A stretch of 64,000 nucleotides of DNA from Strobilurus pachycystidiatus (taxonomy: Eukaryota; Basidiomycota; Agaricomycetes; Agaricales; Physalacriaceae): NCBI GenBank assembly GCA_019915135.1, contig JAHLMK010000009.1:1736001-1800000 (forward strand), written 5' to 3'. Each line of letters begins with the position of its first letter. Within the stretch, counting starts at the first letter, position 1. Both the position numbers and the translations under genes were made by a program. Below are positions 18,807 through 43,184 of this stretch, one piece after another. The notes under the pieces are model-generated. The model was not told the DNA's origin, did not search any database, and saw nothing but the letters and a program-made list of their open reading frames with translations.

Positions 18807-18814
18807 GCCTTTTG
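18807..18814. repeat. KDZ transposon target-site duplication, left (GCCTTTTG)
   Basis: Eight bases identical to 43,177-43,184. Removing one copy plus the element rejoins the gypsy frame exactly. Confidence 0.93.
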
Positions 18815-18859
18815 CAGAAATTTCAGTGACTTTGTGGCCACGTAGTGCCATCTGAGATG
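18815..18859 (+). repeat. KDZ terminal inverted repeat, left
   Basis: About 45 bases. Read inward it shares with the right end the blocks CAGTGA, GTGGCCACGT and CCATCTGAGATG at the same spacing, with a 1-base difference near the tip. It contains the palindrome GTGGCCAC. Confidence 0.82.
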
Positions 18860-19296
18860 GCATTGACCAGACCGTCGCCACTGAAGCGTAGCCACGATAC
18901 TGTCTGTATATACACACGATCAATGCTATCTAGTTGTACTTTTACATCGTGGCCACGCGTGACTACCCTTGATCAACGCTAACTCCCCTCGGCCACCGAG
19001 CGTGGCTACGCGTAGCTCCTTTGCGTGTTTACCACTTCTGAGCACCCACTGCGCGCGGACCGTGGCTACGCGCAGCTCTGATCCCTAATACACTTTGATG
19101 CTAAATCCCAGCGTGGCTACGCGTCGTTTTGCTCCCAGATCCGCTGCCTCCTCAGCGTGGCTACTCTTTGCGTGGCCACGCGTAGCTGGATTTGAGGCTC
19201 TAGAGAATATGGTCAGCAAGATCTTGGCGCGTGGCGACGCGTAGATAGGGTAAATGTTCGCATGGCGATATTGGTCGCGTGCGTGGCTACGCGTAG
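18834..19296. repeat. left subterminal array of CGTGGCTACGCGTAGC-like motifs
   Basis: Ten or so copies of GTGGC[T/C/G]ACG(CG)(TAGC) in both orientations, for example at 18,834, 18,887, 18,948, 19,001, 19,061, 19,111, 19,156, 19,171, 19,230 and 19,281. Core halves are palindromic (GCTACGCGTAGC, CGTGGCCACG). The matching array at the other end of the element and near-absence in the flanks point to transposase-binding sites. Confidence 0.85.
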
Positions 19297-19651
19297 TAAA
19301 GCTGGCACATTTGCGTACGTTCTCGGTATCACTGTCAGTCGCGCTTGAGTCGCTGCGCGTGAGACATGTAAAAGTATGCGCGTACCGGTCTACGACGTGC
19401 GTTGTCGGCTGGTGCCACTCACTGATTTCAACAAAGGGGCTTTGCATTAGTCCTCGCCCATCGTGGAACAGATGCAACTTACGCGCGTTCGTGAAAGTAT
19501 CCTCTTCTCTCCAAAATATGGGATGCATGGTGAACGACGCTGGCATTGAAGAAAGCCTTGACATGGTGGTGGTGGTAGTGGTGAGAGGAGAACATACTGA
19601 TTGAGACCAATGGGGTGGCGCATGGACCATTGCCTCACCTGGGTTAGACAT
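19085..19651 (-). CDS. open frame spanning the left subterminal array
   Basis: An uninterrupted 188-codon frame, start MSNPGEAMVHAPPHWSQSV, end at 19,085. The 3' half is translated from the subterminal repeats. The middle (MHPIFWREEDTFTNARKLHL) looks protein-like, and a GTAAGT donor follows FTNAR, so the true gene may be a short exon set rather than the whole frame. No domain seen. It may be a chance frame through GC-rich repeats. Confidence 0.28.
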   Translation of the reverse strand: MSNPGEAMVHAPPHWSQSVCSPLTTTTTTMSRLSSMPASFTMHPIFWREEDTFTNARKLHLFHDGRGLMQSPFVEISEWHQPTTHVVDRYAHTFTCLTRSDSSATDSDTENVRKCASFTTRSHARDQYRHANIYPIYASPRAKILLTIFSRASNPATRGHAKSSHAEEAADLGAKRRVATLGFSIKVY

Positions 19652-20084
19652 AAGAGCCCTTTGACCGGCTCACTTAAGTACATAGACGGTGCTCAGACCA
19701 TCGACTTAAGCATAAGCCTGACGTTTAAGTCCTTGGCCCGCCCGAATCCTATATTCGTCAATCCGCTTCACGAGAAATTTTACTATAACCGGTCCAGTGG
19801 CGCACTTCAATCCAGGCCCATAGAACACCTCCACATCGTCGGTACATACACTGCAGGCCCTCGAAGGGCTGTCGGTAGTGTCCATGTGAGCTTTGACAAT
19901 GTATATAGCCAAGGCGGCGGGGTCTGCCTTTTCAGTCCATTTGGGCTCCTTCCCGCTCTATTTTCACTCGCCCGAATGGGTAACGTACACGTCGAAATCA
20001 GTCATGTTTTTTTGTAAGTATAGACTACATAATGTTCAGGTCATTTGGGGTATCAAAACGTGGAATACGACGACATCGACCGAG
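19652..20084. other. cargo intergenic region
   Basis: No supported coding frame between the subterminal open frame and the large cargo gene. Confidence 0.35.
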
Positions 20085-22583
20085 TCAATGCTTCCCGCCT
20101 CTGCGTGTGCGCGGCAAATCCGTTATAATCTCCGCACCCACATCGTACAGCGCCGGCCGGACTTCTCCCGGCGGCACGTACACATATCCTTTGCTCCCTT
20201 TGCTGGAGAGGCAGACAGGGTCAATCAACATAAATGCAAAAGTAGAATTGGACGCACGCAGTTTTGTCGATCGCTGACTTCTTTCCTGGCCTGTCTGACA
20301 CGCCAGACTTCGATTTCGTTGATGTTGCGGCTGGGCGCGCCTTCTTCGCTTGGGGCTCCCCGTTGTCTGGTTCTGCTCTTTTCCGCCTAGACAACTCACT
20401 CAATAAAAGTCGAGACATTCTTGATCAGGAGCGACTCACTTGTTTCCCTTGGCCTTTGCGGTCGTCGTCGTTCTGTGACAATATCAAAAGAGATCCTTCT
20501 ATGTCTTGTAGAAGGAACTCACTCAGTCTGTTTGGCTTCCGGTACTTTGGTCTTCGATTTGCTATCCGCGCATCGCGTCAACGTTCTTGAATCCGCCACA
20601 AGTGACTATTTCTTACCTTGTCGCTGCTCCTGTACCTTTGCCTCTAATCCTAGGGTTAGACCTAATCCTCACGAAGAGACACTAGCACATACCGGCGTCC
20701 TTTAGCAGCCACCTTTTTTGACTGTGCAACCACGGTTGGTTCCTCGGTCTCGGCCTCTTCATCCTCGCTACTGTTTATACTTCAGCAAACTTCTGCAGGT
20801 ATAGTTCGTGACAGTGAACATACTCCGGCGGTGTCAACTCTCCCTTGAAAGGATCGTCGTTGTCAGTTCCCGTAGGCAAGCTGTCAAGGCTTGAGGAAGA
20901 AAAAAAACCGAAAAAAACCGAACCTCACTTGTCGAGTTGCAGCATGGAGTAACCCAGACCATCGTCCGGTGAAGCTGCCCGTCCCTTTCGTTTCTTGTTG
21001 GGTGACGCCGCGTTGGGAGAGGCTTCGAACGGTGACTCGGTATCGGAGGAGGCATGATCTGGCTCTGGTTGATCGTGCTCGATCGCATCCTTCGTGCGCG
21101 CCTTCTTCTGCTTGGACTTCGAGGGCGTCTTCGGACTTTTCGGGGGCGGTGAAGGAGGCGTCGGTGTCCTGAAAAGCTCTCGAATCGGATTCGCCTGGAA
21201 ATGGCGAACAAGAGCCAATGCCGTGTCGGGGAATGACTGCAAAAGGGTCGCCACCTTGGGATCGCAGTTGGGCGATAGGAGGCTCGCAGCACCCGAACAT
21301 ATTGTGGCCATAGCAAAAGGCTCTTCGCCGCGCGATAACCCTGATGAACATGTCAGAATGAAAGACGAACCGCAATCCGTTCAGCGCGTACCCCAGTGCA
21401 TGCGTAGAAATTTCTCAGCAATATATCGGAGTTGAGTGTGAGTAGTATTGTCGAGGTCGAGGTTCGAAGGGATGACGATCGTCCCCGAAAAGTCAATATG
21501 GACATCTGAGCTTTGTACTGCAGCTGTGCCGTTCGCTTCAATGAGTGTGAGTGTGATACTATCAGAGAGAAATGCACTGCTTACGAGGAACGTAATCAGC
21601 ACAGTACTTTCGCCAAGCTTCGGTCAATTCTTTCGTCACGAACTGAGGGGGGTCGGGGTCTTTGTTCAGGATGAGGAGACTATCAGATGGGGCGTTAACA
21701 AAGCTAGCAACCGTATCGAAAGCTGCACACACCTAAACGGATTCATGCGCCCAGTTTCGTCTCGGACACCGACAAGAAGGCAGAATGCGGCATTACCGAC
21801 TTGCTGTTTGCCAGAGCCAGGAAGCTTGTATAGTAGACTCGAAAACTCTTGCAACATCAACGCTTGATTTCTGAGTTGAGCGTCAACTTTTCACCGAGAT
21901 TGAAGGAACGTGGGGTGCATACGCGTAGATATCTGGATCGCCGTTGTTGATGGTCTCCGCCTTGTTCGTCCATTCGTCCTTGGTGGCGGGCGGAAGTGTG
22001 TCCCAGGCTTCTTTCATCCGCGTCTGTAAGATTCCAGCGTGGTGTTTGCAGTCCAGATTCTGCTGCTCTCGTTCGATCAAGACTTTCGCGTTCAGCTGCT
22101 CTCGTATACTGGCGAGGTAGAGCGAACGTCCGGTCACCTCCCTAGTGGCAAGGAAGGAGGATGGACTCTTCTGGTCACTGCCACCGCCGCTCACCATCGT
22201 GAACGCTTGTCCCGGCGCCGAAACGCCTATCTTGCTATCGCGGAGTAGCGTGAGTACGCGCTTGCCGCTTTGTGTCGCCACGGTGTCTTTGCGCGAACGA
22301 AATCTTGTTAGAAACGTCTGTGGGTCACTCGTCATTTAGTCCTCAAGCGCGAACCATCCAATATGCGCACCTCTTTGCGATCGCGGAAGTCCGTGTCCTT
22401 GGGAAACTTGGTACAAAACAGTGGCCACGCGATCTCGAGGCTATAGTCCTTGGGAAGTCTCTCCGTAGGGAATGCATGACCCGGCTGCCAATTTGTCCAG
22501 TTCTCTAGGAGAGGTTCAAAGACATTCTTGAGATAGTCTTTGATCCATTGGTCTTCGTCTTTGGTCCACTTGTAGGCGGGCAT
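20085..22583 (-). CDS. KDZ cargo: large nuclear-type protein with Lys/Ser-rich linkers
   Basis: First six exons are firm: 22583-22371, 22317-21923, 21870-21733, 21679-21585, 21535-21392 and 21340-20929, all introns 49-53 bases and all phases consistent (465 aa). The N-terminus is Trp-rich (MPAYKWTKDEDQWIKDYLKN). A segment EAWDTLPPATKDEWTNKAE resembles the helix that packs HMG-box-like folds. A helical block (LNKDPDPPQFVTKELTEAWR) and a Pro/Ser/Lys-rich stretch with nuclear-localisation look (PNKKRKGRAAS) follow. Further small exons down to a stop at 20,085 encode acidic then basic text and end EIITDLPRTRRGGKH. One junction near 20,770 does not resolve in frame by eye, so a missed exon, a frameshift or a base error is possible. 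Probably nuclear; function unknown. Confidence 0.72.
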
Positions 22584-23071
22584 GTCGATGGTAGGGAGGG
22601 GAAGGAAAAGTGAAAAAAGCACACCTCGATAAGCGTTCCTCTTTATCCGCCACTCGCCACTCGGGCCATCGCCCTCTCTACGCCTTGACCTGCCGCTGAT
22701 ACCATTCTTGGGCATGGACCAGCCTTCATTGTTTCGCCACATCGAGGTAACAAAGAGAAGGCGAAATCGTGGGAAAGTACTAACGGATTGGGCAAGTAGG
22801 ACGCCGAAACGCTCTTTCCGAGAAGTCCGGGCTCCTACTCACCTCGCCAGCGTACATGTTGGTCCTCCCGTAATATCTACACAGAGAATTATGTGCAAAA
22901 TTTCACACTGTTCTGATTCATATCCAACACGATCATGCGAACGTTCCAGTACATTCAAACCACCTTTGAACACGAGGTTTCACCCATATTTTGATTACAA
23001 TAAGTAGTCATGCCATGCTAGCTTGGACGGTCTTCGGATTACAACTCTCATTTACGGCGTCATCACCACGA

Positions 23072-24159
23072 CTATACCAGCTTCTGGCGCTTCTCAGTGG
23101 AGGGGAAAGAGGGTGAACGAGAGCGCTTGAGCAACTCTAATACCTCCATGTAGCCTTCTTCGCTCAGATCGATAGACGGCGAACGGGAACACTTGGACAT
23201 TGGTGAGCCTTCCTCGCGTTGTTTCCCAATTTCGCGGTCTCTCTGACCGGGAACTGAGCTAAGGCATCAGCCACCACATCTGGGCATCGACGATTGTGTG
23301 GGGTAGCGTACCTCTAACACTGCAATCCTCCTCTTCCTCCGAATTGTCTGTCCGGGATGTAGCTGCGTCAATTTCGTCTCCATTCACAGATTCGCGATAT
23401 AGCGCTCTGATACCTTTTAAGAATCAACACGATGCACCGTATCCGTTTCAGCAATCCACTCACTGTCCTCAACTTCCTTTAACTTCCTCTCGCAACGTTT
23501 CATAGTCTTGAAATGTTCCGCGCGCCTCCGCCCCGCATCGTGAAATTTCGCTTCATTGTCCAAGATATCGTTGGTCGACCCTAGCGTTCAATCAGTGCAT
23601 GTCACCGAGCGCATCCTCTTTGCTCTCACCGCAACATATACGAAGTTCGTCTCTCGCATGCCCCCGACTGCGTTCCGTCTGTAGTGCACCTATCCAGGCA
23701 TGCTCCGCGTTCTCCAATGCATCGATGGTAGCCTCACGTACTTCATGTAGGCTCTTCCACTCCTGCAATGCGTCTGCTAGATTGGCGCGTTCCTGGGCGT
23801 CCAAGACCGGTGGAAAGTCTACTACTGGACACGGAGACCAAGCGCGACACTATATAACATAAGTATTGAATCGAATAAAAGGCGACTGTTTCCCTCACCT
23901 TAACCATTTGGTCGCCGATCTTTTCCCCTTCGGATACAACGGTATGCACGTGTTGGCGAACCCCTTGTGTGTTCTTGTGGCATGCCATTGCTGCGTCGTA
24001 TTCGCCTTGTGTAACCGTAGGTGGTGGGAGGATGGATACGAGGAACCGAGCGTCGAGAGATATCGACGTCGTCATCTGGAGAATGAGGTCGCCTTTCGGA
24101 AACGCATAGAGCCTGAAGGGATTGAGGGGAGGTCCGAGACATCTGGGGCGACGACTCAT
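23072..24159 (-). CDS. KDZ cargo: coiled-coil protein, paralogue of 27,079-28,185
   Basis: Five exons: 24159-23899, 23849-23630, 23580-23464, 23404-23312 and 23253-23072, giving 290 aa (an upstream Met at 24,186 would add nine). The N-terminal block (SILPPPTVTQGEYDAAMACH ... VVSEGEKIGDQMVK) aligns with the paralogue's LLPGPTLSQEAYDIFMRCH ... VVTAGSDIGHVYLK. A helical, heptad-like middle (DALQEWKSLHEVREATIDAL, RRRAEHFKTMKRCERKLKEV) follows, then an acidic run (SEEEED) and a tail rich in Ser, Arg and Lys ending EKRQKLV. No known domain recognised. The basic tail suggests a nuclear, oligomeric protein. Confidence 0.78.
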
Positions 24160-24367
24160 TCTTGCTTGTAGAGGACGGCGCGACAAGAGATGCCCAGAGA
24201 GTAGCAGGCATTTATGGAAAAGAGCGGAGGCCCGAGCACATCAGGATCGGGGCAACAATAGCACAATCAACTTACTTTGTGTATACGTATTCAGAGGACA
24301 ACTACGGCAGACAAAAGAAACCAGAGGGATAGTAATTGTATTCGAGAACAAGAGATAACGGCCGCAC

Positions 24368-25175
24368 TCAGGCTGGCATGAAGTCGTCAAAGTCCTCCAA
24401 ATCACTGAAGCGACCCATATTAGCCCACTAGCCAAGACAGTTAGTGCAGGACGCTTGGAATGAATGGATGGAGCGTACAGCATACTCAACATTTTCGCTA
24501 GCCGTAGAGGGCCACTAGCCAAGATAATCAGTACAGGACGCATGACATGAATGGATGGGGCGTACGGCATACTCAACATTCTCTCCCAGAGCCCACCTAC
24601 ACAAGCCAGTGTGTGCGAGGTCATGAAAAGCGACGATAGCGTACAGATGCAAATAAGAGTCTACGAGCTCAGTGACGGTCTGTGGGGCACATCATCAGGA
24701 TGGTTGCAAGTCTGGCATCTCGAAACTTACCTTGCATACCGAGCCTTCTTCGGCTACCGATGCCCTGTCCCGTATACATATGTCTTTATTGCTAGACGCC
24801 TAAAGGTGCGTTAGAGCGCCACAGTTAATTGGGAAATGCGAATACCCAGGTGTCGATAGCTCTGCGGGACTGTAGCATCCTTGTCAGAGACGTCGTTGTG
24901 GTAAACAATTCTGATTCCTGAACACACCTTGCCACAGAAAGGCAACCCTTCGATCAAACCGACAAGATAGATGTCAGGCCCCAGCAATACGACTCGGAGA
25001 GAAGAGCGCTCCAGATGGTAGTTGAAGTGACGCGATAAGAGCTACGCCGTTGCGTTGCGTCAGCATGGAACTACAACGATGCAATGAAATGCGGACAAAC
25101 CGTGATAGGGATTTTAACCAGCCAGCGCTCAGAGATGCAAACTGCAAGGCAATTTGCGGTCGTAGAGGCGTGCAT
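24368..25175 (-). CDS. KDZ cargo: 163-aa protein with a duplicated intron-exon unit
   Basis: Seven exons: 25175-25101, 25041-24928, 24869-24846, 24799-24731, 24679-24566, 24514-24479 and 24427-24368. They sum to 164 codons including the stop, with all phases consistent. The N-terminal half is hydrophobic/beta-like (RVVLLGPDIYLVGLIEGLPF), the middle helical (TVTELVDSYLHLYAIVAFHD), and the end a Trp/acidic tail (WANMGRFSDLEDFDDFMPA). The 36-base exon 6 encodes WPSTASENVEYA and repeats the end of exon 5 (WALGENVEYA). Both are followed by near-identical 51-base introns, so an 87-bp unit was duplicated without changing the frame. Function unknown. Confidence 0.75.
24425..24580. repeat. tandem 87-bp intron-exon duplication
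   Basis: 24,425-24,493 and 24,512-24,580 are two 69-base similar blocks spaced 87 bases apart. They cover a 51-base intron and the adjoining ENVEYA-coding exon end of the 163-aa cargo gene. Confidence 0.85.
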
Positions 25176-25318
25176 CAGGGTGTATGTTTGGGAGCGTAAC
25201 AGTTGAGTATCTTGTATACGTTCGGTTCACAATAAGTATCTAAGACATCGCTTGGAAATGGCTGGAGATCATATGGTGACACCGTACTAGTAAGAACTAC
25301 CCTGCCAAGGGGTTGATA

Positions 25319-25845
25319 TCAAACCCTTTCCGCCTCCTGCAGGATCGAGACGTCCTCGGGATCGTCACACTTCGCGAACCTATTCAATGTCGCGTGTCCA
25401 TCCACAGTCAGACGCAGCCCATGCTTAGTCTCGTTCAGCAAGCCACGACGAGTGCGAATGGTAATATCATACCAGTGCATGACCGATTGATGAGAATATG
25501 TTGTGTTGTGTGGCGTTGGTGCCAGGCGCATCCGTTTCGTCGTCCGTGTCACAATCTTGCAAGAGAGGCATATCGCTATCACTGAGACATTCATCCAAGC
25601 CCTGGAATCTTGTCAGAACATATCCTAGAGTCAGACAGAATGACGCACCTGTGTCTCTTTGGGCGCAGGCTCCCCAACGATATGGTCCCCGATCGTCTGC
25701 ACGGTTTCCATCCTCGAAGCAAACGGGGCAGCGCCTTGGAGATCCACCGATTCGCTATTGAGTTTGGGAGCAAACTAGAAAGAGGGAATTTGAAGCCTGT
25801 GCGCACAAGGGAAATTTGAGATATTCAACATACCGAAGCGCACAT
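25319..25845 (-). CDS. KDZ cargo: small acidic protein
   Basis: Four exons: 25845-25834 (MCAS), 25774-25649, 25601-25473 and 25429-25319. They total 126 codons including the stop, with introns of 59, 47 and 43 bases, and give 125 aa. An acidic Cys-containing middle (DECLSDSDMPLLQDCDTDDE) precedes a C-terminus RFAKCDDPEDVSILQEAERV. The 12-base first exon is tentative; the reading frame stays open further upstream (to about 25,930), so a longer 5' end is possible. No domain recognised. Confidence 0.6.
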
Positions 25846-26355
25846 GTGTTGGACAATCTTTTCACGGCGATTAAACCCCCCTGTCGCGTATATAAACCTC
25901 TGAGATAAACCTGTCCGCCTCTACCGCCCAGACTCAGGGACGTCTCTTTTGTTCTCATTCGCGAACCTGTCCATCCAACTCCATGGGGTTCGAACGTTGC
26001 TCTCGCTAAGAAGGAGTAGGCTTATTGTTTCGACAGATTTGAGGTGTCGTTGGCGAAGGGATGGCCTAGAAGATCCGTCTTGGTAGTGAGGATGACCGGC
26101 GGTGGAGAAAGGGAAAGCGTGGGAAACGGAAAACTCTTTGGGATGTACCACCGCGAAACCTCGTCTCCGAGTTCCGCGGATGCTCCGCTGAGTTCCTGTT
26201 CGCGTTCCAAAGTGCGACAAGTAAGTACATAAGATACTCTCGACCTGCTCTCAACCCGGCATCGCTCAGACATAGTTTGCACAAGTAAATTTCGGACGCA
26301 ATGATAATTGAGGATACATGTAACATTCAGATCGCCTTCACAAATAACGCAATAG

Positions 26356-26805
26356 CTACATCTCCTCCAAATGCGGATTTACATCGTCCATCCATGTGGG
26401 CGGAAGCGCCCCGTTGGTTGCTTTCAAGAAGATCGGCCGTGGCGTCATGGGGACAGCGATGTAACTTCGCCAACCAATGGTAGACCACCAACACGAACTT
26501 CCGCGAATATTGAGCAAGCCGAATGATGGGCGTTCAATAATGCCATGGGTCCACAGAGTCAAGGAGTGATCTGAGAGTCGAATGTGTCGTCCAACATTGT
26601 GGAGCACGACCGTGACTCGCCGTCCGCCCTGGGCCAGAAGGTTAGTCGAGATCAACAACCAGTCAACCACACTCACCGAACGATAGAATATCAAAATCGC
26701 ATCGAGAGTGCCACGCCGACGTGGACGGCGCTTGGAACGCGCCCGCATAACATGTGGCGTGATTCCTGATTGAAAGGGTTCGCGATAGGTGACGAGTTTG
26801 GCCAT
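26356..26805 (-). CDS. KDZ cargo: 133-aa basic Trp-rich protein
   Basis: Two exons, 26805-26677 and 26628-26356, joined across a 48-base intron. The N-terminus is strongly basic (RARSKRRPRRRGTLDAI). The rest is Trp-rich and globular-looking (GSSCWWSTIGWRSYIAVPMT) and ends MDDVNPHLEEM. Possibly nuclear or nucleic-acid binding from composition alone. No family recognised. Confidence 0.62.
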   Translation of the reverse strand: MAKLVTYREPFQSGITPHVMRARSKRRPRRRGTLDAILIFYRSVSVVDWLLISTNLLAQGGRRVTVVLHNVGRHIRLSDHSLTLWTHGIIERPSFGLLNIRGSSCWWSTIGWRSYIAVPMTPRPIFLKATNGALPPTWMDDVNPHLEEM

Positions 26806-27078
26806 CTGCAGAGGTTGGGAGTGCGTGAGGGATATCGCACCTTTATAACGATTTCGCTGGGTGGCCTCTCGCGAAGCTCTCAGCTTTGTTCACCCAAAGC
26901 GTCGTCCAAAGACGTCGTCATGGTTCCTCAATGGTAGTGGCATTGTCCTTAATGGTAGCCGATCCAGATTGCAATTGTCGTGCTCCGGTTTGGGTTCATC
27001 TTTGATAGTGTACATTGAAATGACAATTGAAGAACTTGAAATATACACGTTATTGATGTAGTTAGGTAGGTAGATAGT

Positions 27079-28185
27079 TCAGAGTTTGGCACGTTTCCTA
27101 CTCGCTGTAGCAGAGCGGGCAGGAGTGTAGCTGATGATTTCCACATCGGAATCCGGCTCGCTCACGTCACGGGCTCGTTTCCGGGATTGACGTGGAGGAG
27201 ACAGATCCGCGGGGGGAGACAAGACACGAGGAACGTCAGCCTTGATAGTAGCGGAACTTCCGCCGCCGGTAGTACTGCGCCCTCCTGCTTTATCTTGTAG
27301 AGAACTGTTAGTACAGACAACGAGGAACAAACACTGTACAGGTACCTTCTTCCTTCACGTGGTCGTCGACCTCGCCGCGCTCACGAACATTGTCATTCTG
27401 CTCAGATAAAAGTCTTTGTGGGGGAGGAAGAATCACATTGAGAGCTAGACACCAACGAGTTGAGACCGTGGGCGATAATACATATGGTTTGAATTGGATT
27501 CACCTTCGAGATTCTCAGCAAGTTGTTTCTTGATGGCCAGAGCCTCCGTCTCAGCCTGTTGTTCCAACAAGGTCGCTTTCTGGAGTTTCGTGGCCGCAGC
27601 TAGCTGATCGGACAACGAGACTGATGCACGTCAGTTTCTGAACACATCAAAGCACGTTAGTTAGCGCGTACCAGCGGTGCTCCGGTGAACGAGCTGCAGC
27701 GATTCTTGCTCATACTTTTTGCTCGAAGCCTTGAGCGCATCTCTAGTGCATCGGGCAAGCGTGGCAATGAGAGTATCGCGTTCCTTGAGGAGAATCTGTA
27801 TGGCCTCCACTTTACGAGTAGCATCGGCGATGGTGTGCGAGGAACGGGCCGTCACAAGTCGCATTGGGGCACACGCATTTACAACGTTGGCAATCTTGCG
27901 CCAGGTATAACACTTTTCGATATCAGCGAGGCGTCCAGCGGGTGATTTGGGACTCACTTTCAAGTATACATGGCCAATGTCTGAGCCGGCTGTCACAACC
28001 TCGTGGCGGTGATAATGGTCTGGCAGGTGGCATCGCATGAAGATATCGTACGCTTCCTGCGATAGCGTCGGACCTGGGAGCAGCTTCAGGAGTCGTCTTT
28101 CCTCGGGAGTGCTGGTATTCGTGACTCGAATCTGGATAGTAGATGTCTGGTAGCAGAAAGTCGCTGGGGGACCGTTGGGCGCCAT
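27079..28185 (-). CDS. KDZ cargo: coiled-coil protein, paralogue of 23,072-24,159
   Basis: Five exons: 28185-27958, 27894-27672, 27620-27504, 27444-27346 and 27293-27079, giving 293 aa. Start chosen at MAPNGPPATF; an upstream in-frame Met at 28,245 exists. Exon lengths (228/223/117/99/215) parallel the paralogue (261/220/117/93/182) with the same phases, so the two come from one ancestral gene. The middle is a clear coiled coil (ATKLQKATLLEQQAETEALA). The tail holds a bipartite-looking basic signal (RQSRKRARD), an acidic SDVEII and the ending SRKRAKL. Probably nuclear; function unknown. Confidence 0.8.
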
Positions 28186-28508
28186 GTCGGGTAGTGAGTT
28201 ATCGTCGGTGAGCACGGTGTTTATATATCGGAGCTGGCAGTCCATTGTTTCAGCAACAATTGCCAGCTACGGAAACAAAGTAGACTCACCTGCACGCTAT
28301 TGTTCGACCAAAAGACCACTCATGGTCAATGCATCCCAAGCACGGGCCCTTCGTAAATCCGTTTTCTCCATTGCCATGTCGCAAAAACATCGATAAGGAC
28401 TTTTATTTGGAAATATTCGGCTTGTAAGCTCGTATCGTATATACAACAATGCCGGGATTTACAGATACATTGTAATGTAAAAGAATGGACGGTGCGTGGA
28501 TAGGTACA

Positions 28509-29596: not shown

Positions 29597-30112
29597 GGTC
29601 GACTTGCTGAGAAACTACATCAGTAAGAAACTCCTTTATCGAAGAAGGCTTGGGTCAAAGCGCACCTTTTTCACCATCAGATGACATCTAACCGCGCGCC
29701 ACCCACCCAAACATAGTCGAACAAAAGGCTCCCTGACGACAATAAACTCGAAACAATGTTTTGGCCGGCAGCGAGGTGGGGGAGGAAAAGAAAGAGCGAA
29801 GGCGTGAGAAAAAGCTGCCGACTCGTCTAAATCGGGCTGCGAAAGCCTGGTTCCGAGATGGCCGGGCTCGTAGAATTCTAAGTACAAGACATGATGAACA
29901 AGATCGATTCAATACTACTGGTTCACGATAGGTATGAACCTATTCCGAAAGCTCCAGGTTCAAGCGTCCTCGTTATATGTTAGAAATTGACTGTTCATTC
30001 GTCTCCAAGGATACATGAACATGTGGTAATATAAGGATGGGTAGGACTATATTGGGTGTAGCGATTCTGGAGACTGGGTGTGAGCCCCTACAGTGATATG
30101 AGTCAAGAAGAG
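29597..30112. other. cargo intergenic region
   Basis: Promoter side of the 327-aa gene and 3' side of the 125-aa gene. Two overlapping minus-strand frames of 74-83 codons (29,636-29,912) lack convincing composition. Confidence 0.35.
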
Positions 30113-30548: not shown

Positions 30549-30862
30549 ACGGAAAGGAGGTTAATATGGGGTTCTCTCGCCAGCGTCTTATGTTGGCGGA
30601 CGAGGAACCGTTACATCCTTATTGTCAGAAAATGGAACAATAGAGATGATTGCCTTTTATATTTATCGCCCCGGTTGAGTGCCTCAATTCTTCCAGGCTT
30701 GTGGACGGACCTGCTAAGTTGATACATTATATGATATACAGTACGACAGGCGCCGAGGGAGTAGGTGAAGATGAGTAAAATTTAGGAGAAATTCGCGTCG
30801 TAACAAGCGATCCGATCTTATAAGTGTCCAGTAGAGTACAACACAATAGTCCGTATTTGATC

Positions 30863-33706: not shown

Positions 33707-34212
33707 TGAATAGACTTGAACTGTAGATATAGTGTCGCGTCAGTTATACTCGTTACGTATATTTTTCACGGACAGCCTCAAGCTTCATTGGACACCGGAA
33801 AGAGAGAGAGTGTGTGTGTATTGAAGAGTTTACACAAGATTATGTTTCTACACCGGCCAAGAAGAACTTACCAGCATAATATTCGCGATGATGAAGTCAG
33901 GAAGCAGAGGGGGAAATCGTGGGAATCACTTGCCAGAAACACAAGTACTGGCCTGAAACGGGCTTTCCGAAGATTTCGGAAACCTGTTTTCGGCCTGGGT
34001 CAAGGTACGCTCCAGCGGCTTAGTCAGCTCTTTCCCTCCTTGTCTTTGCCCGTCATCATGCTTGGGCCAGTGGTGGCCATTGTTCGACACGCACGCTTTA
34101 TCCGGCCAGATTCAGCAATCACGGATAATGGCCTCTCCTTGGTCAAAGCCACAGTAAGTTCAGCGATATAAAGGAAAGATTTCAAGCTCACACAAGCGCT
34201 ACAGCTTTCGCC
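33707..34212. other. divergent cargo promoter region
   Basis: Lies between the Spt5-like gene (minus) and the Gly-rich gene (plus). No coding frame is supported. Confidence 0.4.
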
Positions 34213-35640
34213 ATGGTCAGAGCCGCCTACCTGCCTCCCCGCGGTCGTAATACTTCGGCTGGCCACACACTCCGCGCATTCTCCTCTCGTCGCTGGAAGG
34301 ACTGTAAAACATACAAGAACGTTGGATTAGGTCGCCAGTTGCAGGTGATCACGGACACCCCCGCTCAAATGGGACGCCAACAGCTGCATGTACGTGTAGA
34401 TAACATACTTATGTATCAGCTCTGACCTTCAGATAGTGCCTCGAAACGAGCAAGTCTCGGATTCTCTGGCGTCCTTCTCCAGAGGAACGTCAGTTACTCT
34501 GCCTGCTCATGAACGACTGGAAATACCTGTATTCCAAATTCAACAATCTTCGTACCGCTATCAAGCGTCTTAACGGCCACAAGAACAATTCCCCCAACAC
34601 TCAAAAGAACGATTCATCAAGATATTGGAACTGCAAATGGAAGTGGTATATAGCTAAGGAAATCATCGTGAAACGATTGGCTGGTGAGGTTATAGTCTTC
34701 CGCGATGATGTTCTACTGCTGATACTTTCGCAGCGAAACGGGCTCAAATGGACCAACTTTTTCTCCAGACCAACGGCTGTACGTCTCTACCTTCATCGAA
34801 ATGCGCTGTCTCATTACTTTGTAGTTGCCAGGAATATTTGCGACGTGGACCTCCTTCAACAGAGTATGTTAACAGTACCACTTGCCGGCTTGTCCTCACT
34901 CCATTCCAGTCCTTTTCGCCAACAAAAAGATTATGAACTTCAACGAGTTAACTGGTAACGAACCCGTCCGAATTGCGGCCGTACCCGCCTGGGCAGTAGC
35001 TGTCCACCATGCTACTATGGGTGCCAAAGGCTTCGCGGCTGCATATCCTCCGCCTGGAGCGAATGGTCCCCCTCCCCCTAGACCTCCCGGCGACAGGAGG
35101 GACGATGACGATGACGGTGACGATGACGGTGACGCTCCTGCTGGCGCTGGTGGCGCTGGTGGTCCTGGTGGCGGCGGTGGTGGCGGCGGCGGCGGCGGTG
35201 GTGGCGGCGGCGGTGGTGGCGGCGGCGGCGGTGCTGGTGGCAACGGCGGCTTTCCGCATCCTCCTGCTGGACCCAGGCCGCCAGCTCCCCCAGTCACCTC
35301 TCAGAAGAACAACGTCGAAGGTGTGCAAGATTGATTAGTTCCTGTTCGACGTTCGCAGCTGATCGAATTCATCCGTACAGCCACGAGTGCAAACTGCAGC
35401 GCGACGAAGAAGAGACCTCTCCTAGAGCAACTAGACGCAGCCTTTGGAAAACCTCTGGGGAAAAAGCCTCGCCTTGGCTTGCTAGGCAAGTGTGAATTTA
35501 CAGAAGTGTCGGAGAAGTGGTCTGATAATTTGATAGTGCAAAAACCTCAGCCCTTCCCGATGGCTCCTCCGAACAAGCGATTCGATGTCATTTCTTCTGG
35601 AACGTCCAAGGCGGATGCCATATATATCGCCGATGACTGA
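34213..35640 (+). CDS. KDZ cargo: Gly-rich, acidic low-complexity protein
   Basis: Seven exons: 34213-34389, 34433-34551, 34608-34645, 34734-34778, 34825-34863, 34910-35292 and 35359-35640. They sum to 361 codons including the stop, with every phase in order. The last intron uses a weak GTCACC donor and is the least sure. The N-terminus is basic and polar. Exon 6 has a Pro-rich turn, a poly-Asp run, then an uninterrupted run of more than 20 Gly residues. Exon 7 returns to mixed charged text (LLEQLDAAFGKPLGKKPRLG) and ends ADAIYIADD. It sits directly upstream of the transposase on the same strand. Function unknown; composition resembles disordered scaffold or capsid-like linkers. Confidence 0.65.
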
Positions 35641-35785
35641 ACTGTCGTGATTGATACTGGTTTCTTATTGTAATGATTCGCTTATTGTTAGACCCTCACT
35701 AGTGTATCGCTTATTTCATATTCATGGACGCAGCCCTAATTACCATCTAAATACCTACTTTTTCACGTTCGTCTACCTTACAATC

Positions 35786-38700
35786 ATGGCTCCCAAAAAA
35801 GCCAGCACGAAAGCACCAACATCCAAAACGAAGCGTAAAAATCCACCGGTGCCGGTTCCGATGGCGCCAATCGAGGCTGGCGAGGCTCCTCCTGGCTACG
35901 GACAGCCGGGTTTCGAATGGGAAAGTGTTGGACTCCAAAAGCGGAGGAAGACAGAGGCGGCGGTAGGAGAGAAGGGGCGGATAGCGGAAGAGGAGCACAT
36001 GGACGAAGATGAGTTCATGGGAGAGCAGCAACTAATAATGGAAGGGGGAAGCACATCTATTGCGGAGGAACCGAGTCCCAAAACCGAGGAGAAGGAGAGA
36101 TACCAAGTGCGTTCTCTGCTGGATTTGACGAGCTTGACTAACGCACCACAGGGGGCATCGGTAGAGATGAAAGAGGTGCTGGAGCACAAACCGGTCTATC
36201 TGGATTACATGCTCGGTAATGAATCCGACATGACCCTCGGCGATCCATGCAAATGCGGGAAGGCAATCCGAACATGCTTGTGCTTCCAGTGTACGCACCT
36301 GCCGCCGTGTTGTTCAGCTTGTTTCCTGCAAGCCCATGAGGCGAATCCATGGCATTGGGCATATCGATGGGACGAAACCAAGGAGACTCTTGTTCAAACC
36401 GATCAGAGCGTCCTGGGGCGGGTAGTCACCTTCGGACACCGACGACATCAGGAACTGGAGTGTCCGGAGCGGCGAGCAGACGAATCTCTCGCATTCACGG
36501 TAGTCGACCTGACCGGAATCCACGCCACGCGGGCGTTCTTTTGCAAGTGTTCCCACTCCCAGGCTTTCGGTACTCGCCATCCACGTCTCGAAATGTTGCT
36601 GGCTTGTCGTATGTGGCCGTCGACAGTGAAGCAAGCGACTGTAGGCTTCACATGGGAATTGATGAAGGACTTCCACCTGCAGACTCTCACGTCCAAAAAG
36701 TCTGCGTACGACTACATGCGTGCGATACAGGCCAAAACGAACAACGCCTTTCCGGGAGACGTCAAGGTTCGTATTCTTCTAATCGATTGAGCGTGTTCTG
36801 ATTTGATTTCGTTACAGGATCTCTTTCGACAATTCATCCGTGCGCACAGGGTCTATGCAGCCTTTATGGCAGAGAAACGAAGCGGACAGGTACATGGTAT
36901 CGACAGGCTGAAGGCTTTCACCAATCGAGTCCCGCGATCTATCGTTGTACCATGCTTCTCCTGTCCTCTACGTGGATTCAACATATCCGAACCGGAAATG
37001 GATGAGGTTCCGATGCGCTATGTGTAAGTGGCTCTAAGCATATACACCATACACCAGCACAATGCTGACGGTTCTGCACAGCCACACTGTCCAATTCTCA
37101 TTAAGCGTCGATGGTCATTTTGGCTTGACCCGACTCAAGAAAGTGGATGATCCAGACGACGTCTCACTGTCGGAGGGCAGAGGCCTATTCCCTCTGGAAT
37201 CGGAGTATGATGCGTGAAGGAGTACGTGCTAAACGACGAAGAAGTACGTAGTTGTTTCTCTTGTCTAAACAACGATGCTCATTGCTTTTCAGAAGTCGAG
37301 TTGTTCGCGATTCAACGCCGTTGAGATGCAGAACAAGTTGAAGTTCAAGGGATGCGTCGTAACTGGCGTGATTGGGGTGACGTGCGGTCGACACTTCGTC
37401 TTTCATTCCATGGCAGATCTTCACAAAGGAGAAAGGTTTGTGAACCTAGCTGTACTGCTTCCTTCCTCGATTAACGAGTCGAACATCAGATTCACGAACA
37501 CGGACTTTGCGATTGCTCGTGCCTTGAGGCAGGTTATGTTGACCGCCGTCATGGCGAAGAGCATGGAAGCCGCGAGACAGTTTCGTCGTGTTATCATCAC
37601 GTACGATGTCGCCTGTCAGTTCAGCATCAAGTTCAAGGCGCGCTTTGGTCGTAGCTTTCCAGATTTCGAGTTCGTCGTCGACCTGATCTACTTTTTGGTC
37701 GCCAAGATGCACCTTTTCGGCCACATCGACGACTGCAAATACAAGTATAACCTGAACTACTTCTTTGGGTCCGGTCGTATCCATGGCGAAGGGATTGAGA
37801 CGACATGGGCCGAGTCCAAGCAAGCAGGAGGCAGTACGCGCCAGATGAACGCGGGCCATCGCCATGATAAGGTCAATGATTTGCATAATTTTTGGAATTG
37901 GATGAAGCTCGTAGGCCTGCGTAAGTTGCACCTGTTTCATCGTCGTCATCCCGCACTAATGAATGATTTGGGCAGCCGAGTTCTTAGAAAAGCATCTAAT
38001 TGCAGCTCGAATCAAATTGGCGAAAAGGGTACAAACCTTCGTCGAAGGTTCGCGAGTGGCTGGCCGCGAATCCGTTGAGAAATGGCAGAAGCTCAGTGAC
38101 GAGCACGTACCATGGCCCGAACTTCTCAAAGCTCCAGGCGTGACGGACAACGACAAGGCAAAATGGAAGAGCTTGTTCCAGATGCAGTTGACGAAGCGTA
38201 AGTCATGTTCGCCATCATGAGATCCGAACTAACGTAGGTTATAGTCCCAAGCAAAGATGATGTCTTGAAGAGCCTTGAGAAGGAAGAGGAGCGCCATGCA
38301 CATACCACTCGGAAGGGCAAGAAGATCGAGATAAAGAACCGAACGGTTCAATGGATCAGTAAAGGTGTCGAGATTCAACAGAAGCAGTAAGTGGTTTGAC
38401 AATGCTCTGCGGAGACAAAAGTCTTATGCCGTGCTGTAGGTTTGATATTCTCAAAGCCCAGAGGAAGCACGGCAATAGTGATGACATCGAACAGGCCCAG
38501 CAGTCTTTGGCGCGCGACATCAAGGCGTTCCGGAAGATTCAGCTACTCGATCTTCCTGCTCTCGAAGATCTCGTAGGTGCGGTCTGCGACGAGGATAAGC
38601 CGGTGGAGAAGGAGCTTCTCCTGCTCCCGTCGGACCTACTCGCAAAGACCACCCGGAAGAAGTACGACCTTGACGGAAAGGACGATTTCTTTACCATAGT

Positions 38701-39687
38701 CAAGGCCCGCCACTGCACCATCGAATTCCGTCTCCGAGAGGGTCAGTGTAACGAAGCGGTCCAGATGCTTTGCCTCATCATCGAGCACGGCATGCTTCTG
38801 AAAGAGACGCAAACTCAACATGCTCGCGGGGTTAGCATGAACCTGCGGTCCATGAAGTACATCAATACGGTCACAGCCAAGAAGCAGAAATATGCAAACG
38901 CATACGCACATGCGCGTCGATGCATCCTACGACTGAAAGGGCGGAAGGATGACCCCGATTTTCCACCTTTGGCTGCCTTCGACCTGTGGGCTAAGAACGC
39001 GGCGGAGGCTCCCGGACTCGGAGATGGCTCGATTGAAGAGAGTTGGATCTGGACGTATGGCCACCTGAGGACTTTGAATGGTGACGAAAAGAGCGCTTTC
39101 ATTGAGGAAGGTCCGTCACCTAACGAAGGTCAAACTCACACACAGCTAAACAGCCATCTGTAGTTCGTCGCGTACGATGGTTTCGGGCTTACGAGGAACT
39201 GAAGCGGTGGAGAGAAGAGGTGGAGATGCTAGAGGCAGAGTTTCGCCGCTTCATCTTCGCATGCAAGACCATGTCCGACTCTTGGCGGGCGTTGGCACAG
39301 GAGCGAACTCCGACTTATGCACTGTCGGTGTCGATGCCGGAGGATTCTTTGAAGACAGCCAAGTGCGGATACACTGTCTATGCCATGCACAAGGTCGACA
39401 TGTTTGCTCAGATGGAGGATAAGGCTCGCAAGTTGTTCATGCAAGCTGGCGGTGGGTTTCCGGGCGAAGGCGAAACACTCTGGGACTATATGGACAAACG
39501 AAGACCCGTTATTGATTTCAATTGGGCCAATGTGGGTTCAGCCCAGGAGAATCAAGTCGAGCTGGACAAGGAGCGTCAAGATATTCTTCGGAGGTTTCAT
39601 GCCCCCGTCGAGAATCTGGAGGGAGATGGTCACATTGATGACGGAGATGTGGATGAAGAGGACATAGTTGTAGGTTCTTCTGTGTAA
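35786..39687 (+). CDS. CxC2-type KDZ transposase, apparently frameshifted
   Basis: Exons: 35786-36766, 36818-37023, 37082-37244, 37293-37435, 37490-37920, 37976-38197, 38245-38386, 38440-39110 and 39146-39687 (last intron only 35 bases, uncertain), about 1,160 aa. A Cys cluster (CKCGKAIRTCLCFQC ... CC..C) at about 36,243-36,330 is the CxC2 domain tied to KDZ transposases. Catalytic-region marks follow: SVDGHFG (37,104-37,124), CVVTGVIGVTCGRH, GERFTNTDFAIARAL, YDVACQFSIKF, LFGHIDDCKYKYNLNYFFGS and GEGIETTWAESKQAGG. In exon 3 an extra A in the AAGAAAAG run (37,137-37,144) causes a TGA at 37,149-37,151. A missing base near 37,213 returns to frame before VKEYVLNDEE. So the gene is either recently inactivated or carries two base-call errors. 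Confidence 0.88.
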
Positions 39688-40429
39688 TGTACAATTACTA
39701 TACAATTCCCTTTACATTCGCCCGTGGGCATCAACACCTTCAAGATAACCTCAATATGTCAACGCAAATATTCCGTGTTTCCTCGTGAGCGTTTAAGTCA
39801 CTGACATCTTCTTGCGTCCTAACAATCTTCACAGTCTCCCTTCTCAACCCGGTTCTGCTCCTGCTACCCAAGGCTAACCACTTCACTTCCTTCTTCGATT
39901 GCTCATCATCCTCGGCCGCACTATGCTATGCACATGTACCTCGGAGACGTGTCACTGTAGGATTGCACGAACTCGACCCATTATTCTGCAAGGTAACATT
40001 ACGAAATGGGACAGCGTCAAATCTGTCTCGCGAGACTTGAAGATAAAGGTACATAGCATCCAATTCAAACCACCGCCCACTAACATCGTGAACAGCTTCC
40101 AGTCGTCATAACGGCGATGATAGTTGTCGTCGTTCAGAGGTATGTGTCCTGATACGTCAATATCCGTCACATACCCTATACTTACTGGATTCTCAGTCTA
40201 TATGCTGTACGAGTGAGCGATCACTACCACGGCCACCTCCGCTACATCGGCTTCAGTATCGGTATCATCCTACGAAACGTAGGTATTTCAATTTCTTGAC
40301 CGTCTCGGTACCCTAACGGACGAATGCCTCCATCAGACATGCGACGATCTTACGACCATTGCTGTGAATATCCCTCCCTTTGATGATCTTAAACATTGGT
40401 TGATGTACACGCACTGAGCGCTGGATTCG
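39688..40429. other. cargo region without a supported gene
   Basis: Between the transposase stop and the next minus-strand frame. Small plus-strand frames with splice-like borders occur (39,899-40,111), but no protein can be assembled. It may hold a decayed gene. Confidence 0.3.
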
Positions 40430-41127
40430 TCACCTTGCACTAGCGACTTCTTCCTCTCGCTGTGTACGTACAACTACCGCCCGGAAGGCGGGAGCAAGGA
40501 GTGGAGGAGTGGGACGCGCGTGCATTTCAACGAACTTCAACTCCGCGTCAGCGCTGATCGTGCTCCCACTCCCAAGTCCTTCCAGGCCCTTCAAGAACAC
40601 ATCGTTCATCCTCCCGAGTTCTGCATCGACTGCCTCTTCGTTCGTCATGGCCACGCTACGGCCGAGACCCAAGTCTGATCCCGAGTCTTGTCGCAAAGGT
40701 AAAGGGAAGGGCGTGCTGTTCATAGATGGTGAGGAACGACGTAGTCAAATCGTCGTCGTCCGTCCGAGTCGCCACAGTGACTAACCTCTCGTTGTAACTG
40801 GAATGGCGCTCCCACTACCAGGTGCTCATCAAGTCTGTCAGGCCGACATCAACATACGACAAGCTGCCCGATAACCTACCAGTCTTCAAACAGATGTGGG
40901 TGCGGCCGTCGGGGTGATGAGCTGAGCAGTGAAGGCGCGCGCGGAGAGGACGAAAGCATGGAGGGCGGCCTCGGGGTGGTTGTGAGTATCGACTGCGAAT
41001 GGGGCATCGGAAAGGTGCTCGGCACGAAGAGTGAGCGTGCCGCGAGGGTGTGGCACGGGCGAGAAAGCATGCCTTCACAAGGATGATAAACGATCCCACA
41101 AGCACCCACACGGCGTGCCGGCGGCAA
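40430..41127 (-). CDS. KDZ cargo: probable minus-strand gene, model incomplete
   Basis: The last exon (about 40,660-40,430) reads MTNEEAVDAELGRMNDVFLK and ends TQREEEVASAR, with strong protein-like composition. Two further coding-looking stretches lie upstream in other frames: TRTDDDDLTTSFLTIYEQHA at about 40,720-40,790 and HPRGTLTLRAEHLSDAPFAV at about 40,905-41,060. They are probably separate exons, but I could not fix the introns. No family recognised. Confidence 0.4.
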
Positions 41128-41266
41128 GGCTAGACCGGTACCTGACCAAATCCGTTACAGTCATGCTGTGCTGTGCCCTCTTGCCCTCATCACAGACATA
41201 CAGTGCGGCCGTTCTAGCCAGATTTTCCGTCATTCGAGCTAATTCTTTGCAGTACAGTCGAACGCG

Positions 41267-41914
41267 ATGCCCGACAGTGCAATCCCAGGCTTCCATCTTC
41301 ACGCTCGTCTCATGGGAGCGGATGGCGACGAGGATTTCCGGAAGATTGTGGACGAATACGACGCGAACACGGAAAACCTCCAGAAACTGACATCGGTCCT
41401 GTTTGGAGCGCTCGGCGCATGCCTGGGAGCCGACGCCGAGTGGAACATCAAACGGGTTTGCCTAGTGCTGCAGGCGTTCGGATTGTCGGCCGTCATCCTG
41501 GCCTGGATCCTCTACCAGATCGCGGAGGCAAAGTTCAACGCGAGAGCGACGACCAGAATCGAGGTTCTCCGAGTAGCGCGAGGCGGCGGAGGGTGGACGT
41601 TGTTGGTTTGCCTGGATTGCATGGGTCCCTTGATGATTCTGGCATTCGATGTGACCCTAGGTGAGTAATGTCTGGCATGTTGCTAACGGTTTACTGATCT
41701 TTGCAGCCGCTTTTGCAGTCTTGGCGTGGAACTTGATAGGGTGGCTGCTCGTCCCTCTCATCGTCTTTGTGGTGGCCCTCGTTATCCTCGTAGGGAGTAC
41801 GATGTTGGCAGGTACGTGTGCATACCCGCGCAGCGAGCGCAATACTGGTTAGAGCTCACATCGCTAGGTTCGTTCTGGAATCGGCGGGGTCTTCGCGAAG
41901 CGGAGGAGGGCTGA
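41267..41914 (+). CDS. KDZ cargo: small multi-helix membrane protein
   Basis: Three exons: 41267-41660, 41707-41811 and 41868-41914, giving 181 aa with consistent phases. A hydrophilic N-terminus (EDFRKIVDEYDANTENLQKL) precedes about four hydrophobic helices: a segment around residues 45-75 (VLQAFGLSAVILAWILYQIA), GWTLLVCLDCMGPLMILAFD, and the pair AAFAVLAWNLIGWLLVPLIV and FVVALVILVGSTMLAG. The short C-terminal tail is charged. The topology suggests an integral membrane protein, unusual as transposon cargo. Function unknown. Confidence 0.7.
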
Positions 41915-41936
41915 GATTTGAGTCGTAGAGGACTAC

Positions 41937-42048
41937 GATGATGTTAGGTACGTGTTTGCTCGTGCAGCGAGGGCAAGACTGATTAGAGCTCATCTCCCAG
42001 GTTCGTTCTGAAAAAGACGGGGTCTTCGCGAAGGAAAGAGAAGGGGCT
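41937..42048 (+). repeat. partial tandem copy of the membrane-protein gene 3' end
   Basis: The sequence from the intron-2 donor (GTACGTGT) to the last exon (GGTCTTCGCGAAG ... GGGGCTGA) of the 41,267-41,914 gene is repeated with substitutions directly downstream. A further echo (GGGATCATCGCGA) lies at about 42,080. Confidence 0.75.
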
Positions 42049-42189
42049 GAATTGGAGCAGGAGGCCTACTCGCAAAAACGGGATCATCGCGATGGTCTCG
42101 GCTCACCGCGCAACGAGTTTTTTCTTGATAAGTCATCGGCACTTGGCCGTCTTCTTGGACCGTGCAGGTCGACGCTGGAATGACAGGTG

Positions 42190-42214
42190 GGGCGGGGCGG
42201 GGCGGGGCGGGGCA
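42190..42214. repeat. GGGGC pentamer run
   Basis: Five near-perfect GGGGC units in tandem, a potential G-quadruplex, just inside the right subterminal array. Confidence 0.85.
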
Positions 42215-42795
42215 TGGGAATAAAGTCTAGGACAACTTCTGAGCACTCGTTGTGTGGCGTCGGCGTTGTTTTAATTGGTATTATTTTGTGATTAATCTAA
42301 ATATATTGATACCCACTGAATTGTCAACTTGTAAAATAACAAAAAAACTATTGTTTGTACAAGACCTTCGGCGTCTGAGTGGCAACAGCGCATTGTTCAC
42401 CTCAATCCCTTTCAGAGACTACCATCACCTCATTTCCTGTCTTTCCGCCTTCCCCTCAACTATGCATGTCATGCTCCATGCTCGTCGACCAGCTCAACCC
42501 CATCGTTCGCTTTACAACCCATGGAGAGATATATTCTTGACAGGGATTATGTTCCGGTGAGTGGCTATTTGAGTCGGACCTTTCTTGTGCATTGTTGACC
42601 GAAAGATAGAGCGCTTCTTCCCTCCCCCCCCTCTTTGACAAACACAGCCGATAGTCATTGCCCAGACTTGCCGAGGTCAGTACATACTTGATTCGTTCCA
42701 TGGCGACTGACACCGACGTGTGCAGGCAGCGGTGTCTGATTGCGCACAGCTACGCGTGACTGCGACCAGACAAATGTGGTGAGTTTGAGGGAACC

Positions 42796-43160
42796 GTGTG
42801 GCGGCGCGTAGCTACGGGTAAGCCGAAGCAATCTTCGCAGTCTATAATGATATGTACGCGTAGCCACGCTCTTGACATGGCGCGTGGCTACGCGGAAGCC
42901 AAATCAATAGTCCAACACCCACAAAGATATGTACGCGTGGCCACGCTCTTGGAAATGCTTGGTTGTGTAACGCGTAGCCACAAATATGAGTTACTCCCGG
43001 GGCGTCGCCGCGCGTGGCTACGGGGACCGGGAATGGATACATACACGTTGAAATCTGTATATTGTAGTCTATTCAATACAACAAAGTGAAGCGCCGTGGC
43101 CACGGAAAGCGTCGCCACGCCAGTCGGAAAGTCATCTGAGATGGTCGAACGTGGCCACAT
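42796..43160. repeat. right subterminal array of ACGCGTAGCCAC-like motifs
   Basis: About nine copies in both orientations, for example at about 42,800, 42,855, 42,882, 42,930, 42,968, 43,010, 43,094 and 43,150. They are the same motif as the left-end array, with GTGGCTACGCG, CGTGGCCACG and GCGTAGCCAC variants. Confidence 0.85.
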
Positions 43161-43176
43161 GATCACTGCAATGTCA
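43133..43176 (-). repeat. KDZ terminal inverted repeat, right
   Basis: Read inward on the minus strand it begins TGACATTGCAGTGATC. It shares CAGTGA, GTGGCCACGT and CCATCTCAGATG with the left end. The element ends at 43,176. Confidence 0.82.
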
Positions 43177-43184
43177 GCCTTTTG
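43177..43184. repeat. KDZ transposon target-site duplication, right (GCCTTTTG)
   Basis: Identical to 18,807-18,814. It lies within the gypsy coding frame. Confidence 0.93.

Follow-up and report, generated by a model that had tools for sequence, protein, structure and literature searches.

A probable 24.4-kb KDZ-superfamily transposon with an Spt5-like gene and an accessory gene set in Strobilurus pachycystidiatus

In this study, we analyzed a window of 64,000 nucleotides from Strobilurus pachycystidiatus (G000:C9:1736001-1800000; genome of 51.8 Mb in 61 contigs), in which a Gypsy retrotransposon is interrupted by a DNA element carrying a KDZ transposase, an Spt5-like gene and six other supported genes. 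All genome-wide searches covered this one fungal genome. Comparison with other copies and with the empty site places the whole element at positions 18815..43177 of the window on the plus strand (24,363 bp), with ends reading CAGAAATTTCAG...CTGCAATGTCAG. It lies between two plus-strand copies of the 7-bp target site duplication CCTTTTG, at 18808..18814 and 43178..43184, the left junction being CCTTTTG/CAGAAATTTCAGTGA and the right junction CTGCAATGTCAG/CCTTTTG. An earlier sequence-only reading of this DNA had described imperfect inverted ends, and these were confirmed: the terminal repeats at 18815..18863 (plus strand) and 43129..43177 (minus strand) match at 36 of 49 positions, against a maximum of 21 in 200 end shuffles. 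The same reading had set the element at 18815..43176 with an 8-bp duplication, both of which had to be corrected by one base. The 8-bp string GCCTTTTG is indeed present at 18807-18814 and 43177-43184; alignment with other copies, however, showed that the element closes on the right with ...TCAG. Because this comparison puts the G of 43177 inside the element as its final base, the duplication is 7 bp, not 8, and the first G of the string is, in the left flank, a chance match to the element's last base.

The host Gypsy copy supplied the empty-site evidence. The restored Gypsy reading frame proposed previously was upheld by open reading frame (ORF) arithmetic, removal of 24,370 bp (the element plus one duplication) bringing frames of 946 and 2161 amino acids into register. 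The joined Gypsy flanks (300 nt) aligned contiguously over 300 of 300 positions at 99% identity at C18:325776-326075 and C3:905089-905388; the flank search gave four rows, namely these two uninterrupted Gypsy sites and the two halves of the window itself. Since the element interrupts the Gypsy copy, its insertion would be the later event.

Scanning the whole genome with end patterns allowing up to three mismatches (reversed-pattern control, 0 hits) yielded eight left ends, six with 0-1 mismatch and two with three mismatches (C6 and C40), and seven right ends, four additional rows of the right-end scan being left ends. Complete end pairs numbered five, all with a perfect duplication (7 of 7 bases each): the window copy, C9 (24,363 bp, CCTTTTG); C18 (C18:561877-610272, 48,396 bp, AGATGTG); C3a (C3:198878-225421, 26,544 bp, CCGGTAC); C3b (C3:1411336-1436008, 24,673 bp, CAATATG); and C4, which consists of ends only (C4:2652119-2657099, 4,981 bp, AGCTGCA). 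Gene order was identical in all four large copies (24.4-48.4 kb), which are located at unrelated sites. The earlier suggestion to look for the same gene set inside the same ends elsewhere was thus answered by three further large collinear copies in this genome, and the element boundary could be recovered in four other complete end pairs, each with its own 7-bp duplication. Copy C4 gave no match to any of the element's proteins at 1e-4 and would therefore need transposase supplied in trans.

The transposase gene (35786..39687, plus strand, ~1107 aa, 11 exons) was identified as KDZ, as first read, by its catalytic domain (PF18758, E 2.5e-43, 148.7 bits against a cut-off of 26.6) together with a CxC2 cysteine cluster (PF18803, E 3.8e-21). 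All 44 of the database relatives listed had the KDZ domain, and the best near full-length relatives were from Paramarasmius (45%) and Marasmius (44%). In the alignment of 45 sequences, candidate DDE residues, numbered by the alignment's model and assigned to catalysis by us, were D369 (95% of 43 aligned rows), D484 (100% of 42) and E548 (100% of 45); many cysteines and histidines were conserved too. The 7-bp duplication falls within the 4-8 bp published for the KDZ superfamily. KDZ elements are abundant in this genome, as at least 174 exon-level matches were obtained with 150 of 249 first-look candidates scored.

Both ends carry dense arrays of the half-palindrome CGTRGCYAC/GTRGCYACG, with nine sites on the left (18815..19291) and eight on the right (42807..43177). 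The C9 element holds 18 half-sites of CGTRGCYACG altogether, nine in the left 0.5 kb, eight in the right 0.4 kb and one internal, and those within 0.6 kb of an end made up 14/14 in C3a, 15/15 in C3b, 12/12 in C4 and 12/15 in C18. The 31 overlapping motif hits of the window included none outside the element, against a mean of 1.47 and a maximum of 5 in 100 shuffles. The subterminal sites contain CpG. These arrays are likely to be transposase binding sites.

The second gene of note encodes an Spt5-like protein (30863..33706, minus strand, ~843 aa, 7 exons) with a KOW motif, an acidic N-terminus and a stretch resembling the C-terminal repeat region. Its earlier recognition as Spt5-like was well founded: against solved structures (PDB), residues 214-447 matched best the Spt5 of 8qsz (9.9e-9) over several KOW modules, and nine of ten rows up to E 1 were Spt5. 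The sole relative found in the protein database (one of 7,993 scored candidates) was an Amanita protein with an NGN domain above the Pfam cut-off (E 8.6e-14; ~540 columns, 24% identity). In a sub-threshold alignment, the N-terminus fell on the acidic beginning of Spt5 and the residues following it, and TSPAWDPSSRTPI in the Spt5-like protein resembles the TPAWNxGSR repeats of the aligned Spt5.

Genes were modelled with our own simple predictor, which used codon-level comparison with the other copies and no transcripts; for the transposase and G8, the output of two predictor runs was combined or interpreted manually. About twelve cargo genes had been proposed from the sequence; only eight models, transposase included, were supported, with G1-G4 and the Spt5-like gene on the minus strand and G6, the transposase and G8 on the plus strand. 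G1 (19998..22583, ~587 aa) has no known domain, and its small C-terminal exons are doubtful. G2 (23072..25175; long model of 465 aa, short model at 23259-24159) and G3 (27079..28390, ~346 aa, first small exon doubtful) had been noted as a coiled-coil pair and proved to be paralogues (27.8% identity, E 1.45e-8). G4 (28509..29677, ~337 aa) also lacks a known domain. G6 (34213..35640, ~350 aa; start and some splice sites uncertain) is a core gene between the Spt5-like gene and the transposase, and G8 (41267..41660, extent read by hand) is small and looks membrane-spanning. Protein database searching gave no relative of G1 among 7,988 scored candidates, the first 374 residues of G1 had no match among solved structures, and G4 had three weak rows there (best E 0.02); neither the first 280 residues of G1 nor G4 had a match in NCBIfam.

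The ORFs at 25.2-27.0 and 29.7-30.8 kb showed no clear coding signal. The first predictor run fused G6, the transposase and downstream exons, and the second gave the transposase as two models and G2 as fragments. Dropped models were, from the first run, 21950+, 32185+, 38539-, 38815- and 40656- (short or antisense, scores 1.9-7.1) and, from the second, 37289- (antisense to the transposase, score 4.8) and four scoring below 4. Outside ~41.3-41.7 kb, the right-hand variable module (39838..43003) matches the DNA of the other three large copies barely or not at all. Its stretch at window positions 39838-41266 is not shared by the other copies and holds exon-like fragments that may come from a membrane protein; it is perhaps a decayed gene.

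Genome-wide matching separated genes confined to this family from a wider core. At E 0.001, all rows for G1 (27/27), G3 (20/20, four of them being the paralogue G2 in the same elements) and G4 (12/12) fell inside the four large elements, so that at least these three genes have been added in the four-copy family. The Spt5-like gene gave 44 rows and was found beyond the elements on C3 at 2.446, 2.527, 2.632, 2.667 and 2.822 Mb; two diverged genes (30-33%) were present at C10:1056587-1058279 and C10:1242005-1243708, one of which has a same-strand KDZ match at a distance of ~4.5 kb. G6 accompanied all five C3 loci and was also present at 2.500 Mb, there with no Spt5 match, and the transposase was matched at no fewer than four of the five C3 loci and at 2.500 Mb (42 of 358 first-look candidates scored). 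The trio stands together at C3:2.44, 2.53, 2.63 and 2.82 Mb. In orientation, the Spt5-like gene was divergent from G6 in 5/5 C3 loci and from the transposase in 4/4 where both were matched. As these three genes co-occur at other loci, they form the core. The element end scans found no ends at the C3 loci. The five Spt5-like loci of C3 cluster within 390 kb (G000:C3:2440000-2830000); elsewhere the gene was matched only in the four elements and at the two C10 loci.

Two kinds of exchange were detected. First, a cassette at 30869..34239, comprising the Spt5-like gene and its upstream region, is 93.3% identical to C3:2821240-2824622 over 3,385 columns, the final 240 bases dropping to 83 and 76%, and the genes beside it there are far more diverged. 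In the 7.9 kb of the C3:2.82 Mb locus compared, similarity outside the cassette was limited to two short stretches, one of 61 columns (87%), which on the window side lies ~1 kb beyond the 3' end, and one of 170 columns (67.6%) within G6. The transposase protein of that locus showed 49-76% identity. Since the cassette is 93% alike, the transposases only 49-76%, and little else is similar, the cassette must have moved between element lineages after their transposases diverged. The dS values between C9 and C3b were 0.50 for the transposase and 0.09 for the Spt5-like gene. Second, where C9 and C3a differ, C18 follows C9 at 949/966 sites up to 30031 and C3a at 918/954 sites from 30143 on, with 26 C9-like sites, most of them in a patch at 35079-35263. 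This switch of allegiance between 30031 and 30143 indicates that C18 is a recombinant copy. C3a and C3b are ~99% alike, yet only 71% in the last 2.0 kb.

Other end matches and inserts were also recorded. A pair of ends on C20, 29.7 kb apart, was rejected as a sixth element, the flanks GAATTCG and ACGGCTC being different and the right part being 97-99.5% identical to the end-only copy C4. C28 has a right end alone. C6:1137257-1137338 and C40:71188-71269 are degraded left ends and, the neighbouring sequence being the same at both, probably represent one old end copied within another repeat. The excess length of C18 is mostly a nested Gypsy of 17,080 bp, with further inserts of 696 and 1,398 bp; close to its right end C18 also has 4.8 kb that are not in C3a. 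The 17-kb block was rejected as cargo, being a nested Gypsy whose repeats, 1,695 bp long, are 99.6% identical and whose duplication is GCGTT; this copy (G000:C18:566845-583924) is young and sits in G2 of C18. The C3a transposase holds inserts of 1,167 and 272 bp. The former (C3:218350-219516) has inverted ends TAGAGACCTTCACGAG, and its left end also opens a 676-bp stretch at C3:204636.

Comparison of the window copy with C3b pointed to purifying selection on all eight genes as modelled. The ratios of nonsynonymous to synonymous substitution rates (dN/dS) were 0.30 for G1, 0.29 for G2 (0.32 for the long model), 0.24 for G3, 0.31 for G4, 0.26 for the Spt5-like gene, 0.31 for G6, 0.09 for the transposase and 0.19 for G8, against 0.85-3.3, with many stops, in shifted frames; such low values argue that the genes are kept by selection. 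The non-transposase models contained no premature stop in the three other copies, in a count that passed over inserts and indels. The Spt5-like gene and the long G2 model had no coding indels in the other copies, and the transposase, large inserts aside, had only 3 bases in frame. G8 is diverged in the other copies (dS ~0.9-1.4), and its indels in C18 and C3a are paired and compensating.

We consider it likely that the locus holds a 24.4-kb KDZ-superfamily DNA transposon, inserted in a Gypsy retrotransposon and moving as a multi-gene unit with its own accessories. The precise delimitation claimed by the sequence-only reading, and the large gene block with it, stood up to the five complete copies, the empty-site comparison and the element-restricted genes. 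The term cargo fits less well. No host metabolic family was matched in Pfam by any of the eight models, and at other loci the Spt5-like gene and G6 are again found as a core with KDZ transposases of this lineage; the gene block is therefore better regarded as an accessory set than as cargo in the Starship sense. That these genes help the element is plausible.

Several observations weigh against this interpretation. The mobility of the element is deduced from its sequence. By our models the transposase is split in C3a by inserts and its codon 1016 of 1108 is a stop in C3b, and the nested Gypsy of C18 divides G2. G4 is broken in C3a by a 23-base deletion; G1 has a 7-base deletion in a small C-terminal exon in C3a and C3b, G6 a 2-base frame-changing indel at an exon edge in C3b, and small frame-changing indels affect two doubtful exons, one at the end of the short G2 model and one at the beginning of G3. 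Introns departing from GT-AG were seen in some other copy for 7/8 genes, G4 being the sole gene without any, and were most frequent in G1 (4/13; C3a and C3b), G8 (2/2) and G6 (3/7 in C3b). Intact multi-exon structures, as described earlier, hold for the window copy as modelled. The dN/dS values are biased towards coding because the models were built with the same copy comparisons, and against C18 they reach 0.46, the left half being nearly identical and changes correspondingly few. G1-G4, G6 and G8 have no known domain, and the part at 39.8-43.0 kb is mostly not common to the other copies. In the Spt5-like protein a single KOW exceeded the Pfam cut-off, the sub-threshold hits to three SPT5 KOW models covered the same stretch, and the NGN domain was too weak for Pfam.

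The mode of action can be outlined in several steps. The transposase would bind the CGTRGCYACG arrays through its cysteine cluster, bring the ends together and perform a DDE-type cut and paste reaction, and it might also mobilise end-only copies in trans. The Spt5-like protein would compete with or assist host Spt5 on RNA polymerase II, and the remaining genes would be element accessories rather than cargo of benefit to the host. RfaH, a bacterial paralogue of NusG, is a specialised version of a universal elongation factor. By analogy, the Spt5-like protein may be a specialised elongation factor by which the long, intron-rich genes of the element are transcribed through chromatin or silencing; the proposed likeness is one of action, RfaH being bacterial and not part of a transposon. 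As a tentative proposal, to which we give somewhat less than even credence, this would be a transposon lineage with an Spt5 paralogue as its core exchangeable cassette, a selfish RfaH-like elongation or anti-silencing factor, around which one family built a 24-kb multi-gene element.

Other roles of the Spt5-like protein and other origins of the block have to be weighed. First, it might be a decoy that disturbs transcription-linked silencing by the host without aiding elongation. The CpG in the subterminal sites would suit such a role, as would the TET/JBP dioxygenases acting on methylated DNA that related KDZ elements carry (PMC12730594); the match to plant RDM3, however, is at chance level (E 0.057), and we regard the decoy as a rather doubtful alternative. 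Second, the protein may act in mobility rather than in transcription, for example as a component of the transposition complex whose KOW modules contact nucleic acid or the transposase. This appears unlikely: the gene does adjoin the transposase, divergently at the four C3 loci with matches to both, but its protein aligns with host Spt5 over several modules, and a dedicated transposase partner is less probable because the gene was swapped between lineages with diverged transposases. Third, the extra genes could be neutral passengers, enclosed by KDZ ends and carried without effect, as the missing domains of G1-G4 and G6, the split G2 of C18 and the frame-broken G4 of C3a might suggest. Such passengers would hardly be expected to show dN/dS of at most 0.32 in all eight models in the true frame against at least 0.85 in shifted frames, no premature stops in the non-transposase models of the other copies, again with inserts and indels passed over, and an Spt5-like gene and G6 that accompany the transposase at further loci, and we consider this improbable. 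Finally, a stable block of host genes that KDZ ends came to flank by chance or through two separate insertions, for which we found no supporting point, is scarcely credible: the block recurs inside these ends at four unrelated loci, each time with a different 7-bp duplication, the Gypsy site is found empty, and G1, G3 and G4 are unmatched elsewhere in the genome.

Under the favored interpretation of a multi-gene KDZ transposon, these results indicate that a mushroom DDE-type transposon can keep and spread a multi-gene block, as a KDZ unit of more than 24 kb with about eight fixed genes at several sites. The Spt5-like gene raises the testable question of whether a mobile eukaryotic element brings its own form of a universal factor to control transcription elongation, and the exchange of the Spt5 cassette, together with the recombinant copy, shows a route by which such blocks may be assembled.

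Comparison with known systems places the element among the KDZ transposons. Among the open-access papers listed, mostly as titles and the beginnings of abstracts, none described a KDZ element with such a gene block or a transposon-encoded Spt5. The Kyakuja lineage of Laccaria (Kyakuja-1_LB and Kyakuja-2_LB) has a 7-bp duplication, CA..TG ends without inverted repeats and a TET/JBP gene (PMC12730594). Our element shares with it the KDZ transposase, the 7-bp duplication, the 5'-CA start and a second gene beside the transposase; it differs in its CA..AG ends, inverted repeats matching at 36/49 positions, the Spt5-like gene with six others, and its length of 24 kb (PMC12730594). It is thus close to Kyakuja in duplication and CA start, not in its ends, and a Pfam search of the eight models up to E 0.1 gave no match to a TET/JBP dioxygenase in them. 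In Pucciniales transposons, TET/JBP genes are described as having passed horizontally between superfamilies without signature ends (PMC12730594), a transfer to which we liken the exchange of the Spt5 cassette. KDZ1-KDZ3 of Cryptococcus are ~9-11 kb long, with a CxC1 cluster, inverted repeats of 139-241 bp, duplications of 4-8 bp and observed mobility (PMC12810828). The KDZ transposase, inverted ends and duplication length class are common to both; in contrast, our element exceeds 24 kb, has CxC2, shorter repeats and a mobility deduced rather than observed, and the part of that source available mentions no gene block (PMC12810828). The CxC2-KDZ genes of Pleurotus likewise have a CxC2 cluster ahead of the KDZ domain (PMC7641404). 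Starships, giant fungal elements with a tyrosine recombinase captain, have been reported in the basidiomycete Tremella at 41.9-605.8 kb (PMC13066641; PMC12134995); they resemble our element, as an idea, in being large and carrying a gene block (PMC13066641; PMC12134995), and no tyrosine recombinase domain, their hallmark, was present in the eight models, to which that search was limited. What appears to be new here is the size, the gene set and the Spt5 core, not the transposase.

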